Below are positions 16,704 to 35,241 of a DNA stretch of 39,688 nucleotides, one piece after another. The translations under genes and the position numbers were made by a program. Each line of letters opens with the position of its first letter. Position 1 is the stretch's first letter. Under the pieces are notes generated by a model. The model was not told where the DNA came from. It did not search any database and saw nothing but the letters and a program-made list of their open reading frames with translations. The stretch comes from Bacteroidota bacterium (lineage in GTDB: Bacteria; Bacteroidota; Bacteroidia; AKYH767-A; 2013-40CM-41-45): contig JAPLDB010000118.1 of assembly GCA_026391975.1 (NCBI GenBank), positions 10,666 through 50,353 of the forward strand. The letters are read 5' to 3'.

Positions 16704-19700
16704 ATGCAGTTTTCCCACCTCCACTCACATACACAATTCTCTCTTCTCGACGGCGCAGCAAGCATTTCAGGCCTTTATAAAAAGGCAGTGAAAGACAACA
16801 TGCGCGCAATTGCAATCACTGATCATGGAAACATGTTCGGTGTATTCAAGTTTGTGGCTGAAGCAACCAAGCATAACAAAGAAGGAGTGAAAGTCAAACC
16901 AATTGTTGGGTGTGAGTTTTACCTGGTGGCTGACCGGCACAAAAGGCAATTTACAAAAGAAGTTAGAGATGAACGGGCACACCAGTTATTCCTTGCGAAG
17001 AATGCAGAAGGGTATAAGAACCTCATTAAGCTTTGTTCGCTCGGTTACATGGAAGGACTTTATGGAAAGTATCCGCGTATTGATAAGGAACTTGTGCTGA
17101 AGTACCATAAAGGATTGATTGCAACCACTTGTTGTCTTGCTGCAGAAGTGCCGAGAGCAATCATCAAAAAAGGTGAAGCGGAAGCAGAGAAGATTTTTAA
17201 ATGGTGGCTGGATCTATTCGGAGAAGATTATTACATCGAGCTTCAACGTCACGATATTCCTGAACAGAGAATTGTCAACGAAGTTTTATTGAAGTGGTCA
17301 CTTAAGTACAATGTGAAGGTGATCGCTACCAACGATTCTCATTACGTGAACCAGGCAGATTCAAATGCACATGACATCCTGCTTTGTATCAACACGGGAG
17401 AAAAACAGGCGACTGAAAAAGCAAAGGACGGCGATGAAGAAAATAATCAGAAGGGCAAACGGTTCGCTTTTTACAATGATCAGTTTTATTTCAAGACCAC
17501 TGAAGAGATGTCAACACTTTTCAGTGATGTGCCCGAGGCAATTGACAATACCAATGAGATCGTTGACAAAGTTGAATTATTAAAACTAAAGCAGGATATT
17601 TTACTCCCGAATTTTGTAATCCCTGAAGGTTTTAAAGATCAGGATGCATACCTCGAACACCTCACTTATACCGGAGCGAAAGAAAGGTACAAGGAAATAA
17701 CACCGGACGTTGAAGAGCGTTTGAAGTTTGAACTCTTTACCATCAGAACGATGGGATTTGCGGGATACTTTTTGATTGTATCAGATTTTATCAAACATGG
17801 ACGTGATGTAGGCGTGTTTATCGGCCCCGGCCGGGGAAGTGCTGCGGGCTCTGTGGTGGCTTATTGTACGGGTATCACAAACATTGATCCTATAAAGTAC
17901 AATTTGCTCTTTGAAAGATTCCTGAATCCCGACCGCAAGAGCATGCCCGATATTGATACTGACTTTGACGACGTCGGGAGGCAAAAAGTAATTGACTATG
18001 TAGTAGAAAAATACGGCCGTAACCAGGTGGCACAGATTGTTACCTATGGTACCATGGCCGCCAAGATGAGCATCAAGGATGTTGCGCGCGTTCTGGATCT
18101 TCCATTACCGGAAGCCAATGCACTTGCGAAACTTGTTCCTGAGCGCCCGGGCATCGAACTCAATAACATCATGACTGCTCCGCTCGATGGAGATAAAGGA
18201 CTGAAATCATTTCTACAAAGCGATGAAATTGAAGACGTAAAAAAGTTGCGGAAAATTGCAGAAGGAAAAGACCTGCAGGCCGCAGTGATTAAAGAAGCCC
18301 TTATTCTTGAAGGAAGCGTTCGAAATACCGGCATTCATGCGGCAGGAATCATCATCGCACCGATGGATCTCACGGAAATTATTCCTGTTGCAACTTCAAA
18401 GGAAACGGAATTGCTGATTACTCAATTTGAAGGAAAAGTTATTGAAGATGCAGGTGTGCTGAAGATGGACTTTCTCGGTTTGAAAACACTGACTATCATC
18501 AGAGATGCACTTGAACTTATTGAACATCATCATGGTGTAAAAATTGATATCGATAAGATTCCGCTTGACGACAAGAAAACACTGGAGCTTTACCAGCGCG
18601 CAGAAACCAATGCAACATTCCAGTTTGAATCGGCTGGAATGCAGAAGTACCTGAAAGATCTCAAGCCTGATAAGTTTGAAGACCTCATTGCAATGAATGC
18701 GCTTTTCCGTCCGGGACCGCTGGCTTACATTCCTGAATTCATTGACAGGAAACACGGAAGAAAAAGGATCGTGTATGACGTTCCTGAAATGGAAGAATAT
18801 TTAAAGGACACCTATGGCATCACAGTTTACCAGGAACAGGTGATGTTGCTTTCTCAAAAGCTGGCCGGCTTTACAAAAGGCGAAGCGGATGTTCTGCGCA
18901 AAGCAATGGGAAAGAAAGACCGTGCAACACTGGATAAAATGAAGAGCAGGTTTATCGAGGGGACGACTGCAAAAAATCTCGATGCAAAAATTTGCGAGAA
19001 GGTGTGGACAGACTGGGAAGCATTTGCGCAGTATGCATTCAATAAATCACATTCTACATGTTATGCATTTGTTGCATTTCAGACGGCCTATTTAAAAACG
19101 CATTATCCGGCAGAGTACATGAGTTCTGTGCTTACACACAACCTGAGCCAAATCGAAAAGATTACTTTTTTCATGGAAGAATGCAGAAGAATGAATGTGC
19201 CTGTCCTTGGTCCCGATGTAAATGAAAGTCATTACAACTTTGGCGTGAACGGCAAGGGAGAAATCCGCTTTGGTTTGGGAGCAGTGAAGGGAGTAGGAGA
19301 AGGTGCTGTTCAGGCCATCATTGAAGAGCGCACCAAGAACGGAGCTTTTTCAGATATTTTTGAACTTGCCCAGCGCGTCAGCACAAAGGCCGTCAACAAA
19401 CGCTGCCTTGAAAGTCTGGCAATGGCAGGGGCACTGGATTGTTTCGAAGGAATACACCGTGCACAATATTTTGCAGGTGATGCAAAAGACCCCGTACCGG
19501 GAATTGAACGCGTCACAAAATTTGCTTCTGCCTTCAGCAATAATAGTTCTTCAATGACGAATACGTTATTTGGCGAAGACCATCACGATACGATTACGGT
19601 TCCTGTGCTGCCCGACGTTGCTCCATGGAATTCACTGGAGAAACTGAGAAAAGAAAAAGAAGTGATCGGTTTTTACATCAGCGGACATCCGTTGGATGAA

Positions 19701-21214: not shown

Positions 21215-21456
21215 TATTATAAATTTATTGGCAAATATAGGATGGGAGCCCATGAAAGAACATTGATCTGAGGTAAGAAATAACGCTAAAACATGGGTTC
21301 CTGACTTCCTGTCAGCTAAAACAATCAGGCTCCCTTTTTGTTATTATATTCGCGACTCAGTTTTTATCTCATCCCGATAACTATCGGACTCAAATCTCCC
21401 TCCCGCTAGCTATCGGGATCATATCTCATATCTCATATCTAACATCTCCTTAAATT

Positions 21457-27758: not shown

Positions 27759-27854
27759 GATTCACATCTTCAAATCGTTTCATCTTCAAATCCTCTCATC
27801 CTCAAATCTTCAAATCAACTAATCAACAACTCAACTACTCAACTACTCAACTTA
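27759..27854. repeat. Period-8 degenerate tandem array (12 units), overlapping the acyltransferase 3' end
   Basis: gattcaca tcttcaaa tcgtttca tcttcaaa tcctctca tcctcaaa tcttcaaa tcaactaa tcaacaac tcaactac tcaactac tcaactta; exact 8-nt phase. Confidence 0.9.
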
Positions 27855-28714
27855 TGTTTCCACCTCCTGTGCGTCCACAACCAATACTCCGGCGCTGAAC
27901 GAATGATATCTTCATTGATACGGTAGATCCTTTCTGTGATTTCATTTTCTTTTGTCTGAACCGGTGTATCAGTTACTAGCTCATAAGTGATGCGGTACTT
28001 TCCTCGGCTGAGCTTGATAATCTTCCCATAGATAACAGGGAAATCATATTTCACCGCATATCGCTCCACCCCTGTCATTACGGAGGTATCCTGGTTAAGG
28101 AATTTTAGCCAGATACCCTTTTTCGGATTACTCGGACTCTGGTCGAAGATAAAACCATAAGAACAGCTTTCATTTTTATGATCTTCAAAATACTGTGCGA
28201 CTTCTTTCACCGACATCAACGTCATCCCGAACTTACTTCTTGTTTCCTGGAGTTTCGTGTCGAAAAATTTACTTTTGAGTGGAAGGTAAATTCCAAGTGC
28301 CTTGTGCGAACTGTGACGGATAAATGCCACTGCCGGCCATTCCCAGTTGCCATAATGCCCGGTACACAATATGACGCTTTTATTCAGCCTGTAATATTTT
28401 TCGAGCAGTTCAGTATTTACTGCCTCCACCCTTTTTTGCAATTGTTTTTCAGAAATTGAAAATGACTTCAATCCTTCTACAACCACATCGCAGAAATGGC
28501 CATAAAATTTTCGCATCAGCAACTTCAATTCTTCTTCGCTTTTTTCAGGGAAGGAATTACGGAGGTTTTCCCAGACTACTTTTTTTCGGTAACCAAAGAG
28601 GGTAAAGAGAAAGAAAAACAGGAAATCCGACAATGCATATAGTGCAGGCAACGGAAGCCAGGAAATGGGGAGAAGTAAAAGGTAATAGAATAGTGCGCTG
28701 ATGATATTTCCCAT
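27839..28714 (-). CDS. Lysophospholipid (lipid A biosynthesis) acyltransferase, LpxL/HtrB family
   Basis: ILCTGHYGNWEWPAVAF, FIFDQSPSNPKKGIWLKFLNQDTSVMTGVERYAVKYDFPVIYG, EYWLWTHRRWK. Start taken at MGNIISALFYYLLLLP. Confidence 0.88.
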   Translation of the reverse strand: MGNIISALFYYLLLLPISWLPLPALYALSDFLFFFLFTLFGYRKKVVWENLRNSFPEKSEEELKLLMRKFYGHFCDVVVEGLKSFSISEKQLQKRVEAVNTELLEKYYRLNKSVILCTGHYGNWEWPAVAFIRHSSHKALGIYLPLKSKFFDTKLQETRSKFGMTLMSVKEVAQYFEDHKNESCSYGFIFDQSPSNPKKGIWLKFLNQDTSVMTGVERYAVKYDFPVIYGKIIKLSRGKYRITYELVTDTPVQTKENEITERIYRINEDIIRSAPEYWLWTHRRWKHKLSS

Positions 28715-28804
28715 AATGTGGCGGCAAATATAGTTTGGTTTTTGAAAGGAACCTGCTTCACGGGAACTAAAAATTCGAGTTACTTTTGCGCTCAAATCAA
28801 TTGT

Positions 28805-30139
28805 GTGGAAGTTACGATCAGAAAAGGCAGGGTAGAAGGGAAAGTACATGTGCCATCATCAAAAAGCCTTTTGCAACGCTATTTAATAGGAGCACTCCTT
28901 GCCGAAGGCGTCACTGAATTATATGATGTGCATCACTGCAATGATACCCTGGCATGCCTTGATGCTGTTCAATCTTTTCAGTCGCAATCCCAAATCGGTT
29001 CCGGTTTGAGAATTGAAGGCGGTAATGGAGTTATTTATCCTTCCATTGATAGGATTAATTGTGGTGAATCCGGTTTTGCCTTGCGTGCGCTCGCATCAGT
29101 TGCAGCTTTGGCAGCCGGGCAGATTACTTTAACCGGTTCAGGATCCTTGCAAAGGCGCCCTGTCAGTTTTTTTGAAAACGTGTTTCCTGAATTAGGTGTT
29201 GAATGCAAAACCAATGGTGGATTTCTTCCGCTTAACGTTAGGGGACCTATGCGGTTCAAAGATATCTCAATTGACGGATCATTGAGTTCACAGTTTCTCT
29301 CCGGCTTGCTGATTGTTTATCCGCTTGCAAACAAGGATCATGTTATCGATGTCAAAAACCTTAGTAGCAAACATTACATTGACCTCACTTTGCAGGTGAT
29401 GAAGGATTTTGGAGTGAATGTGACACATGAATCCTATCAGAAATTTTTTATTCCCGGGAATCAGAAATACAAATCCTGTAAAGCAGTGATCGAAGGTGAC
29501 TGGAGCGCGGCTTCCTTTTTGTTGGTAGCTGGGGCAACTGCAGGTGAAGTAACCGTCAATAATCTATCGATGAATTCTTTGCAGCCGGATAAAGCCATTG
29601 TTGAGGTATTGAGAAGCTGCGGTGCAGAAGTTACGTTGAATAACAATTCTGTATCGGTCACCTCTTCTGACTTCAAACTTCGAACTTCAAACTTCAAATC
29701 GCGAGGTTTCACTCACGATCGCGAGCAAGCCTCGCGACTTCAAACTCACAACCTCAAACCCTTTAAATTTGATTCCACCGATTGTCCGGACCTGTTTCCG
29801 CCTTTGGTTGCCCTTGCAGCTAGATGTAATGGCATATCAGAAATAACAGGCGTTCAAAGATTGATTCACAAAGAAAGCAACCGTGCATTAGCTTTGCAGC
29901 AAGAGTTTTCAAAGATGAATGACAAGCTGATTTCAATTGAAGGAAATAAAATGATCATCTGTGGCGGATTGCCATTGAAAAGTGCAAATGTTGATTCGCA
30001 TAACGACCACCGAATCGCCATGTCGCTTGCAATAGCCGGACTGAATGTTGAAGGCGGAATTCAAATTAGCGGATGTGAATCTGTACAAAAATCATATCCT
30101 GATTTCTTTGCCAACCTTGAAAAACTCATCATGAATTGA
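28805..30139 (+). CDS. aroA: 3-phosphoshikimate 1-carboxyvinyltransferase, with in-frame insertion
   Basis: VHVPSSKSLLQRYLIGALLAEG, NCGESGFALRALA, GDWSAASFLLVAGA, DSTDCPDLFPPLVALAA, HNDHRIAMSLAIAGL. Likely GTG start at 28805 (VEVTIRKGRVEG). Confidence 0.92.
   Translation: MEVTIRKGRVEGKVHVPSSKSLLQRYLIGALLAEGVTELYDVHHCNDTLACLDAVQSFQSQSQIGSGLRIEGGNGVIYPSIDRINCGESGFALRALASVAALAAGQITLTGSGSLQRRPVSFFENVFPELGVECKTNGGFLPLNVRGPMRFKDISIDGSLSSQFLSGLLIVYPLANKDHVIDVKNLSSKHYIDLTLQVMKDFGVNVTHESYQKFFIPGNQKYKSCKAVIEGDWSAASFLLVAGATAGEVTVNNLSMNSLQPDKAIVEVLRSCGAEVTLNNNSVSVTSSDFKLRTSNFKSRGFTHDREQASRLQTHNLKPFKFDSTDCPDLFPPLVALAARCNGISEITGVQRLIHKESNRALALQQEFSKMNDKLISIEGNKMIICGGLPLKSANVDSHNDHRIAMSLAIAGLNVEGGIQISGCESVQKSYPDFFANLEKLIMN
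29669..29760 (+). repeat. In-frame repeat/palindrome insertion within aroA
   Basis: Period-7 units cttcaaa cttcgaa cttcaaa cttcaaa, then tcgcgagg...gatcgcgag-caagc-ctcgcga, then cttcaaa ctcacaa cctcaaa; 11-bp direct repeat gacttcaaact at 29669-29679 and 29736-29746. Confidence 0.8.
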
Positions 30140-30149
30140 TATTTATTTT

Positions 30150-30213
30150 CTTAATCACTTCATCACCTAATCACCTAATCACTTCATCACCCAATCACCT
30201 CCTCAACACCTCC
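30150..30213. repeat. Period-8 degenerate tandem array between aroA and aroC (7 clear units)
   Basis: cttaatca cttcatca cctaatca cctaatca cttcatca cccaatca cctcctca (acacctcc). Confidence 0.9.
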
Positions 30214-32758: not shown

Positions 32759-34165
32759 TTACTTTCCAATACAGAAGCGTGAAAAGATATTCGCCAGCAA
32801 CATATCATTTGTCACTTCACCGGTGATCAGTCCCAAATGATAAAGGGCATTTCTAATTTCCGGCGCTATCAAATCTCCTGAGAGTTTTTTATTCAACCCC
32901 TCCAATACAAGTTGAAGAGATTCATTTGTGTGCTGCAATGCCTCTGCGTGCCTGGCATTTGTGACAATTACATTATCATGTTTGGTATGAGATAAATTAA
33001 TTTCATCCAGCAGCTTTTTGGTAAGGATAGGCAGGTTGAGTTTTTCTTTTGCAGAGATGAAAACGACTTCGCCAAATCCGTCAAATTCATTTTTTAGCTT
33101 TTCATGTTCCTTCTTATCGACCTTATTCCCTGCAAGGATGACCTTATAGTTTGTCGAATGAACATTCTTTTTCAATTCCTCCAGTTCGCTTCGCAGAGAT
33201 GCAGGTGTGGATTCATTCACATCGAATAAATAGATCAGCACCGGACTCTGATTGATCTTTTCCATCGTACGGCTTACGCCAATGCTTTCAATGGCATCGC
33301 TCGTCTCTCGGATTCCCGCGGTGTCTATAAACCGGAACTTTATTCCTGACAAAACAATTTCTTCTTCGATGGTATCCCTTGTCGTTCCTGCTATATGACT
33401 TACTATGGCGCGCTCGTCATTCAGCAATGCATTTAGCAAAGTGGATTTTCCTACATTCGGTCTGCCGGCTATTACTACAGGAATTCCATGTTTGATCACA
33501 TTTCCTAATTCAAAAGAGGAAATCAGATTTGAGATATGAGACATGATATGTCCAATGAGTTCAGCAAGTTGCTTCCTGTTTGCAAATTCTACGTCTTCCT
33601 CGCTGAAGTCCAGTTCCAGTTCAATCAGTGATGCAAAATTGATCAGCTGCTCACGTAACTGTTTTATCTCAGATGAATAACCCCCACGCATTTGTTTTAA
33701 TGCAAGGTCATGTGATGCCGATGAGTCAGATGCAATAAGGTCAGCAACTGCTTCAGCCTGCGATAAGTCCATCTTGCCATTCAGAAAGGCACGCAAAGTA
33801 AACTCTCCCGGTTGCGCATTCCTTGCTCCGTGTCTGTTGAGCAGTTGCAGGATTTGCTGTTGTATGAAAATTGAACCATGACAGGAGATTTCGACTACAT
33901 CCTCTCCTGTATATGAATGCGGATTTTTAAAGACTGAAACCAGTACTTCATCAATCGTATTCTCTCCTTCCTTTATCCACCCGAAATGAATGGTATGCGA
34001 ATCCTGCTCAGCGATTTTCTTTTTATTTTTTCCCTTCGCGACAAAAACACCGTCAGTAATCTCAAATGCCCTCATCCCAGACACCCTAATCACCGCAATC
34101 GCCCCAACTCCCGCCGCAGTCGCCGGGGCTATGATTGTGTCACCATTATTTGAAAACTGTTGCAT
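32759..34165 (-). CDS. mnmE: tRNA uridine-5-carboxymethylaminomethyl(34) synthesis GTPase MnmE
   Basis: 468 aa; DTIIAPATAAGVGAIAVIRVSG, GRPNVGKSTLLNALL, DTAGIRETSD, C-terminal FCIGK. Confidence 0.96.
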   Translation of the reverse strand: MQQFSNNGDTIIAPATAAGVGAIAVIRVSGMRAFEITDGVFVAKGKNKKKIAEQDSHTIHFGWIKEGENTIDEVLVSVFKNPHSYTGEDVVEISCHGSIFIQQQILQLLNRHGARNAQPGEFTLRAFLNGKMDLSQAEAVADLIASDSSASHDLALKQMRGGYSSEIKQLREQLINFASLIELELDFSEEDVEFANRKQLAELIGHIMSHISNLISSFELGNVIKHGIPVVIAGRPNVGKSTLLNALLNDERAIVSHIAGTTRDTIEEEIVLSGIKFRFIDTAGIRETSDAIESIGVSRTMEKINQSPVLIYLFDVNESTPASLRSELEELKKNVHSTNYKVILAGNKVDKKEHEKLKNEFDGFGEVVFISAKEKLNLPILTKKLLDEINLSHTKHDNVIVTNARHAEALQHTNESLQLVLEGLNKKLSGDLIAPEIRNALYHLGLITGEVTNDMLLANIFSRFCIGK

Positions 34166-34466: not shown

Positions 34467-34515
34467 CTTGTGACTTGTAACTTTTGACTTTTGACTTCTA
34501 ACTTGTGACTTTTCA
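34467..34515. repeat. Period-7 degenerate tandem array (7 units) abutting the DUF4199 stop codon
   Basis: cttgtga cttgtaa cttttga cttttga cttctaa cttgtga cttttca; exact 7-nt phase. Confidence 0.9.
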
Positions 34516-35017: not shown

Positions 35018-35120
35018 GTTAAATATTTTTGGTTTGATACAAAGAAAGGGAAAAAAGGGGACGGATGTCGGTTGATATCGAGGGGACTTTGCAACCTTTT
35101 GCCCAAATATCCTTTTCTCA

Positions 35121-35241
35121 CTTAGTCACTTAGTCACTTAGTCAAATTGCCACTTAGTCACCCCATCACCCATTCAACTTAATCACCTCACCACTTAATC
35201 ACCTCATCACTTAGTCACCTCTTCACCTAATCAACCAATCA
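35121..35241. repeat. Period-8 degenerate tandem array (about 15 units) in a divergent spacer
   Basis: cttagtca x3, aattgcca, cttagtca, ccccatca, cccattca, acttaatca (one 9-mer), cctcacca, cttaatca, cctcatca, cttagtca, cctcttca, cctaatca, accaatca. Confidence 0.92.

Follow-up and report, generated by a model that had tools for sequence, protein, structure and literature searches.

How does a block of repetitive DNA, of a kind that otherwise occupies spacers, come to lie in frame within the gene of an essential-type enzyme? The question is raised by aroA, the EPSP synthase gene in the 39,688-nt stretch of a Bacteroidota genome analysed here (the window), for which a preliminary description had reported a palindrome and heptads inserted in frame. 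Our analysis makes it very probable that spacer-type non-coding DNA has become part of an essential-type gene, and that dispersed repeats are tolerated in disordered surface loops once they have passed a filter for frame and stop codons. The AroA loop has about four residues in relatives, and a minimum of about 20 further ORFs in this genome contain in-frame repeats of the kinds that make up the aroA insert.

The aroA gene and its product

The aroA ORF (28718-30139, plus strand; 473 aa from a GTG codon) matches the Pfam family PF00275 (EPSP_synthase) with an E-value of 5e-88, and passes the equivalog score of NCBIfam TIGR01356 (328 bits, cut-off 287). At its 5' end the ORF runs into an acyltransferase gene on the opposite strand, and translation probably begins near 28805 (VEVTIRKG...). 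The reading frame contains no stops, its product keeps the EPSPS motifs SKSxxxR, SSQF, CPD, KESNR and DHRIAM, and the host genome, a 3.61-Mb draft in 239 contigs, contains no second aroA copy. Thus, the gene is not a pseudogene with a functional copy elsewhere, an outcome that the preliminary description had considered, and its statement that the insert preserves the frame holds.

The nearest named relatives of this AroA are from Chitinophagaceae and Segetibacter. The closest ortholog, that of G006 (L028; 56-63% identity), reads NSVTV-KRKP-LKAF at the site of interest; AroA here has NSVSV-(31 aa)-LKPF, and the link is longer by a net 27 aa (81 nt). The extra stretch, previously estimated at about 25 residues, is therefore real, although it starts a few residues further toward the N-terminus. 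It is missing from all of the ~30 AroA relatives aligned, whose links at this site are short and varied; the alternative named earlier, that relatives share the same residues, is thereby contradicted. From orthologs at ~60% identity, with one genome per species as the basis of comparison, we infer that the difference arose by insertion.

The AlphaFold2 model of AroA, calculated from a shallow alignment of three sequences (mean pLDDT 86.9), exhibits the EPSPS fold, with TM-scores of 0.84-0.88 to the E. coli and Klebsiella enzymes and 0.87 to 3fk0. The sole segment with pLDDT below 50 is the insert; it comprises model residues 290-314 (codons 29672-29746, plus strand) and is predicted to be a disordered loop. 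The insert maps between the EPSPS segment ending with TRGELK and the segment starting with ELKAVDMDMNHIPDA; a strand terminating near EPSPS residue 310 lies before it, and the segment with the conserved PD motif comes after it. Judging from the model and the retained motifs, AroA looks like a functional enzyme with an added floppy loop, and the cell probably makes working enzymes that bear floppy loops of translated spacer DNA.

DNA structure of the insert and its second copy

Repeat and inverted-repeat searches bear out the architecture proposed earlier, namely heptads, a palindromic core with TCGCGAG, and three more heptads. The 5' array (29670-29698, plus strand) comprises 4.1 copies of ACTTCAA with a period of 7 and 90% matches according to Tandem Repeats Finder; 24 of 28 positions match at lag 7, a value reached by none of 2000 codon shuffles (shuffle maximum 20). 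It is followed by a 52-bp palindromic element (29694-29745, plus strand), delineated by BLAST, a core-pattern search and folding, with the outer stem TCGCGAGG...CCTCGCGA and the inner hairpin TCGCGAGCAAGCCTCGCGA (29719-29737). In the inverted repeat TTCAAATCGCGAGGTTT/AAGCCTCGCGACTTCAA the arms span 29693-29709 and 29727-29743; TCGCGAG is present at 29699 and again at 29719, and CTCGCGA at 29731. The 3' end is formed by degenerate heptads (CTTCAAA, CTCACAA, CCTCAAA; 29736-29759, plus strand), which belong to the direct repeat family D1 and are 83% identical to the 5' array; the direct repeat GACTTCAAACT is present at 29669 and 29736 exactly as described before. The hairpin is moderately significant (DNA fold z-score of -2.5 to -2.7). 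Tandem heptads are joined in the insert to a palindromic element, and these two types of repeat need not have arisen in the same way. Searches for a plasmid or phage source gave no match, and a known RNA family was rejected as well, since Rfam returned only two sub-threshold chance matches.

A gapped BLAST search of the host genome with the palindromic element revealed one other match (81% identity over 52 bp, E-value 1.4e-5), at L060:3233-3284, within a phosphohexomutase gene of the GlmM/phosphomannomutase family (L060:3101-4573). This copy is also in frame and adds 21 residues that ~20 aligned relatives do not have, so the earlier suggestion to look for the core elsewhere yielded one further in-frame site. 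The element is read in different frames in aroA and in the phosphohexomutase gene, which, together with its absence from the ~20 relatives, argues that it is the DNA that spreads, and not a peptide. The core pattern was found at just these two loci of the genome, both within genes, with no spacer copy. We therefore rejected the idea of the TCGCGAG core as an abundant dispersed family: in addition to the two loci here, there is one in 99 other genomes, located outside any plausible gene.

Repeats in spacers and in other genes

In this genome short repeats normally lie in spacers. Most of the spacer heptads are of the RACTTYT or CTCATAT types, and one spacer has ~15 TTTGAAG units; an array of CTTGTGA/CTTTTGA units lies at 34467-34513 of the window. 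Three RACTTYT heptads in a row give 96 matches here, 20 in G002, 12 in G046 and almost none elsewhere. The assignment of the insert to the same class of repeat as fills the spacers needs a small correction, in that the exact CTTCAAA unit is uncommon there. Arrays with a period of 8 also fill spacers in the window (27761-27856, 35108-35233, and, between aroA and aroC, 30147-30199). Among the palindromes, CCGATARCTATCGG has an intergenic copy at 21374-21387, and its TCCCGATNGNNATCGGGA form has 73 copies in the genome, as compared to 0 for the reversed control, and was found in 37 of 100 genomes searched. The in-gene copies of the latter are read in several frames (PDSYR, PIAIG, SRWLSG). Palindromes are not enriched beside heptads in spacers above background, which leaves the composite structure seen in aroA and pyrD unexplained by a single element type.

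Because 7 and 3 are coprime, a perfect array of heptads leaves either every frame of a strand open or none of them; all 16384 heptamers, when written as perfect arrays, gave 3 or 0 open frames per strand. Heptads can for the same reason easily pass the frame/stop filter. Of the 68 strand-copies of spacer heptad arrays, 42 have no open frame, and heptads within genes can only be drawn from the open ones.

To the question of whether other genes carry such repeats in frame, raised in the preliminary description, the answer is positive. We compared spacers with ORFs by BLAST, using reversed spacers as a control; ORFs were called mechanically, with no gene finder, and the counts come from a non-random sample of 1.62 Mb (~45% of the genome), a part of which was picked for having matches. 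There were 34 ORF-internal sites, located at a distance from the ORF ends, with at least 2 spacer partners (in 27 ORFs) versus 2 in the reversed control, and 26 sites with at least 3 partners (in 21 ORFs) versus 0. According to Pfam and NCBIfam, the affected genes include pyrD, metG, hemB, ileS, polA, uvrA, nuoL, a pyruvate carboxylase-like gene, atpB (at the N-terminus), a heptosyltransferase-family gene, and many type IX secretion C-terminal domains. A clear insertion, as judged by alignment of many orthologs, is seen in aroA, the phosphohexomutase gene and pyrD, while the remaining genes rest on repeat content and family matches. PyrD carries in frame a block that relatives do not have, composed of heptads, TCCCGATAGCCATCGGGA and further heptads. 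In 1.6 Mb, arrays with a period of 7 occur deep within ORFs, and periods 4, 5, 8, 10, 11 and 13 give none.

In-ORF heptads close to ORF starts (L079, L158, L154, L177) were left out as likely upstream DNA, and a heptad-like stretch in MnmE (window 32759-34165) was not counted, as the region looks native. In ATP synthase subunit a (L074:3910-5055, minus strand) a PDSYRE palindrome lies near the N-terminus, and may be either upstream DNA or an insertion in the leader. The linkers and tails of secreted proteins (type IX C-terminal domains; L078, L085, L162, L070, L066) are rich in the translated repeats AGLTPALSEGEG, KVKIQKSKVKSE and NPDSYRD.

The same loops in relatives

In related species the same loops hold unrelated in-frame repeats. 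In the MetRS loop, the length of which varies in every species, the heptads have the unit CAAACAT here, AATCCGA in G006, where they surround TCCCGCACGTGCGGGA, and CAGGAAT in G002, whereas G013 has an CCCCGGCCCCTCTCC...GAGGGGGGAG element (loci in relatives: L225, L217 and L218). The heptads of the PyrD loop have the unit ACCGGAA in G006 and GGGCAGT in G002 (L185 and L186). In PyrD of both G006 and G002, as well as in MetRS of G002, no other part of the gene is as heptad-periodic as the loop; this is not so in MetRS of G006 and G013, where the case rests on the palindrome.

Two hemB copies are present on one contig (L199:7370-8176 and 18306-19307, minus strand). The complete copy carries GGCCTCTCCCCCAGCCCCTCTCC-AAAGGAGAGGGG in frame, and in the N-terminally truncated copy 2 nt at the tip of this hairpin are replaced by an extra 29-nt palindrome, again in frame. 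This is the nearest that we have to an empty/filled pair of sites, and suggests hairpin tips as possible targets of insertion.

In-frame DUF559 domains and palindromes

Several housekeeping genes contain in frame a DUF559 domain, a relative of the solved endonuclease-like protein 3hrl: those for IleRS and RecG in the host genome, MetH in G016, and LeuRS and acetyl-CoA synthetase in G003 (loci L201:15516-19535, minus strand, L136/L243, L242, L245 and L257). In four of these five genes from three genomes the domain has clearly paired inverted palindromes on its two sides. The inverted-flank scores are 37 for IleRS, 36 for LeuRS and 41 for acetyl-CoA synthetase; in RecG, which is outside the scored set, the paired palindromes are clear by eye, and in MetH the right copy is degenerate, with a score of 20 that equals the background. 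Among 19 scored DUF559 loci, for which the overall median is just 23, 12 are near full-length, and 8 of these score 31-88. For 66 other gene loci the median is 19, and the highest score is 28; with mismatched flank pairs the median is 20 and the 95% point 26, and their maximum of 639 stems from near-identical loci. Among the ~150 DUF559 matches listed for the class, 52 are in open frames of at least 500 aa by a hand count, and some of these are perhaps ordinary fusions.

DUF559 is thus a candidate enzyme for the movement of palindromic repeats, a link that we did not find in the literature. We can tentatively propose, as a possibility still somewhat short of even, that the palindromes of this group are the ends or non-autonomous derivatives of a DUF559-based mobile unit that inserts in frame, stays translated, and leaves short palindromic scars, with peptides like LTPxPSPxERG/PLSFGEG, in many proteins of Bacteroidia. 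If true, IleRS, LeuRS, RecG, MetH and acetyl-CoA synthetase would carry a whole nuclease domain between inverted palindromes. The candidate may not apply to aroA, since the aroA palindrome is not visibly of the type that flanks DUF559.

Origin of the aroA insert

The series of events that would account for these observations begins with palindromes being copied to new sites by a REP- or MITE-like process, and with heptads growing through replication slippage. Most insertions into coding regions would be harmful and would be lost; the survivors would be those with a length that is a multiple of three and no stop in the used frame, located in disordered surface loops or linkers. We assume neutrality: most likely, the insert neither alters the activity of EPSP synthase nor represents an adaptation. 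MITEs are marked by terminal inverted repeats and a target-site duplication; the aroA insert has inverted arms, and no target-site duplication could be read against orthologs from other species.

It is conceivable, albeit unlikely, that nothing was copied in, and that the loop grew locally by replication slippage and template switching at quasi-palindromes. Heptads generally look amplified in place, and their units at the PyrD and MetRS loops differ by species (ACCGGAA, GGGCAGT, CAGGAAT, AATCCGA, CAAACAT), which points to such growth; local growth does not, however, account for the recurrence of the palindromic half of the aroA insert in a second gene, nor for the 73 dispersed copies of TCCCGATNGNNATCGGGA against none in the control, several of them in genes. 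Mobilisation of the palindromes as REPs by a RAYT (Y1) transposase appears less probable still: REP-like hairpins are common, and one Y1_Tnp domain above the cut-off is encoded here and many in relatives, but the aroA element has no GTAG tag, and the number of Y1 genes does not track that of palindromes (7 genes and 4 palindromes in G006; 1 gene above the cut-off and 73 palindromes in the host genome).

We give little credence to the view that the insert has been co-opted, so that its peptide, or a hairpin in mRNA or DNA, regulates AroA as a folding pause, a binding site or an interaction loop. Its retention in an essential-type enzyme and a hairpin somewhat more stable than those of shuffled sequences are compatible with such a role, against which stand the predicted disorder, the lack of the insert in every aligned AroA relative, the lack of any Rfam family at the gathering score, and the filling of loops in other enzymes and species with unrelated sequences. 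An assembly chimera or a decaying gene, which the fragmentation of the draft into 239 contigs might bring to mind, is very hard to reconcile with the retention of the frame and of the characteristic EPSPS motifs, the lack of a second aroA copy, and like features in many genes and in the genomes of relatives. Tolerated insertion of dispersed repeats is the explanation that we favor.

The case shows that spacer repeats can colonise essential-type genes in frame outside reduced intracellular genomes as well, and it offers translated repeats as an origin, open to testing, of novel protein segments derived from non-coding DNA. The loops that contain different repeats in related species serve as natural maps of insertion tolerance in enzymes, and in annotation, LTPGPSP-like or KSKVKS-like stretches should be considered as possible translated repeats.

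Comparison with known systems

The closest parallel, invoked already in the preliminary description, is provided by the Rickettsia palindromic elements (RPEs), which occupy intergenic sites and also, in frame, housekeeping genes, where they add tens of residues at tolerant sites; they are ~150 bp long, have a conserved peptide, and in the case of RPE-4 and RPE-6 end in CGTC (PMC10969869, PMC3733652). The likeness holds insofar as palindromes are inserted in frame into unrelated genes here as well (aroA, phosphohexomutase, pyrD), and fails for size and for the CGTC tag: the shared element here has 52 bp, is read in different frames, is untagged (neither CGTC nor GACG occurs in 29669-29760), and is joined to heptads in a 3.6-Mb Bacteroidota genome.

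In-frame palindromes have also been reported outside Rickettsia, with Opitutus terrae, Thioalkalivibrio and Xanthomonas as examples. Such palindromes are known from the coding regions of several groups, where uvrA and genes for polymerases and recombination are frequent hosts, and CGTC repeats have been noted in Bacteroidetes (PMC3733652), so the principle itself is already known. These intragenic REPs of the GTAG/CGTC families resemble our case as short palindromes in coding regions, including uvrA and DNA polymerase I, both of which are affected here. The aroA element differs in lacking GTAG/CGTC, with no GTAG/CTAC at the foot of the hairpin; REPs are devoid of heptads, while here several unrelated palindrome families are accompanied by heptads and a nuclease domain. 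Arrays of the TAACTGA heptamer are intergenic in Beggiatoaceae, Cyanobacteria and some Bacteroidetes (PMC4679880), and share with the repeats described here the period of 7, the direct orientation and the location mostly in spacers; our arrays are built of other units (TAACTGA is not present in the aroA insert), of which there are many per genome instead of one, and also occur inside genes. Inteins with homing nucleases likewise place a nuclease domain in frame in housekeeping genes, as DUF559 is placed in ileS, recG, metH, leuS and acs; Pfam, however, reported no splicing domain, and DUF559 appears to be retained in the protein and is mostly bounded by palindromes. We found no mention in the literature of the palindrome string or of LTPGPSP-type peptides. 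As far as the literature showed, what is new is the presence of heptads in genes, the filling of a given loop with unrelated repeats in related species, the coexistence within a single genome of several families of palindromes, and the nuclease domain carried in frame.
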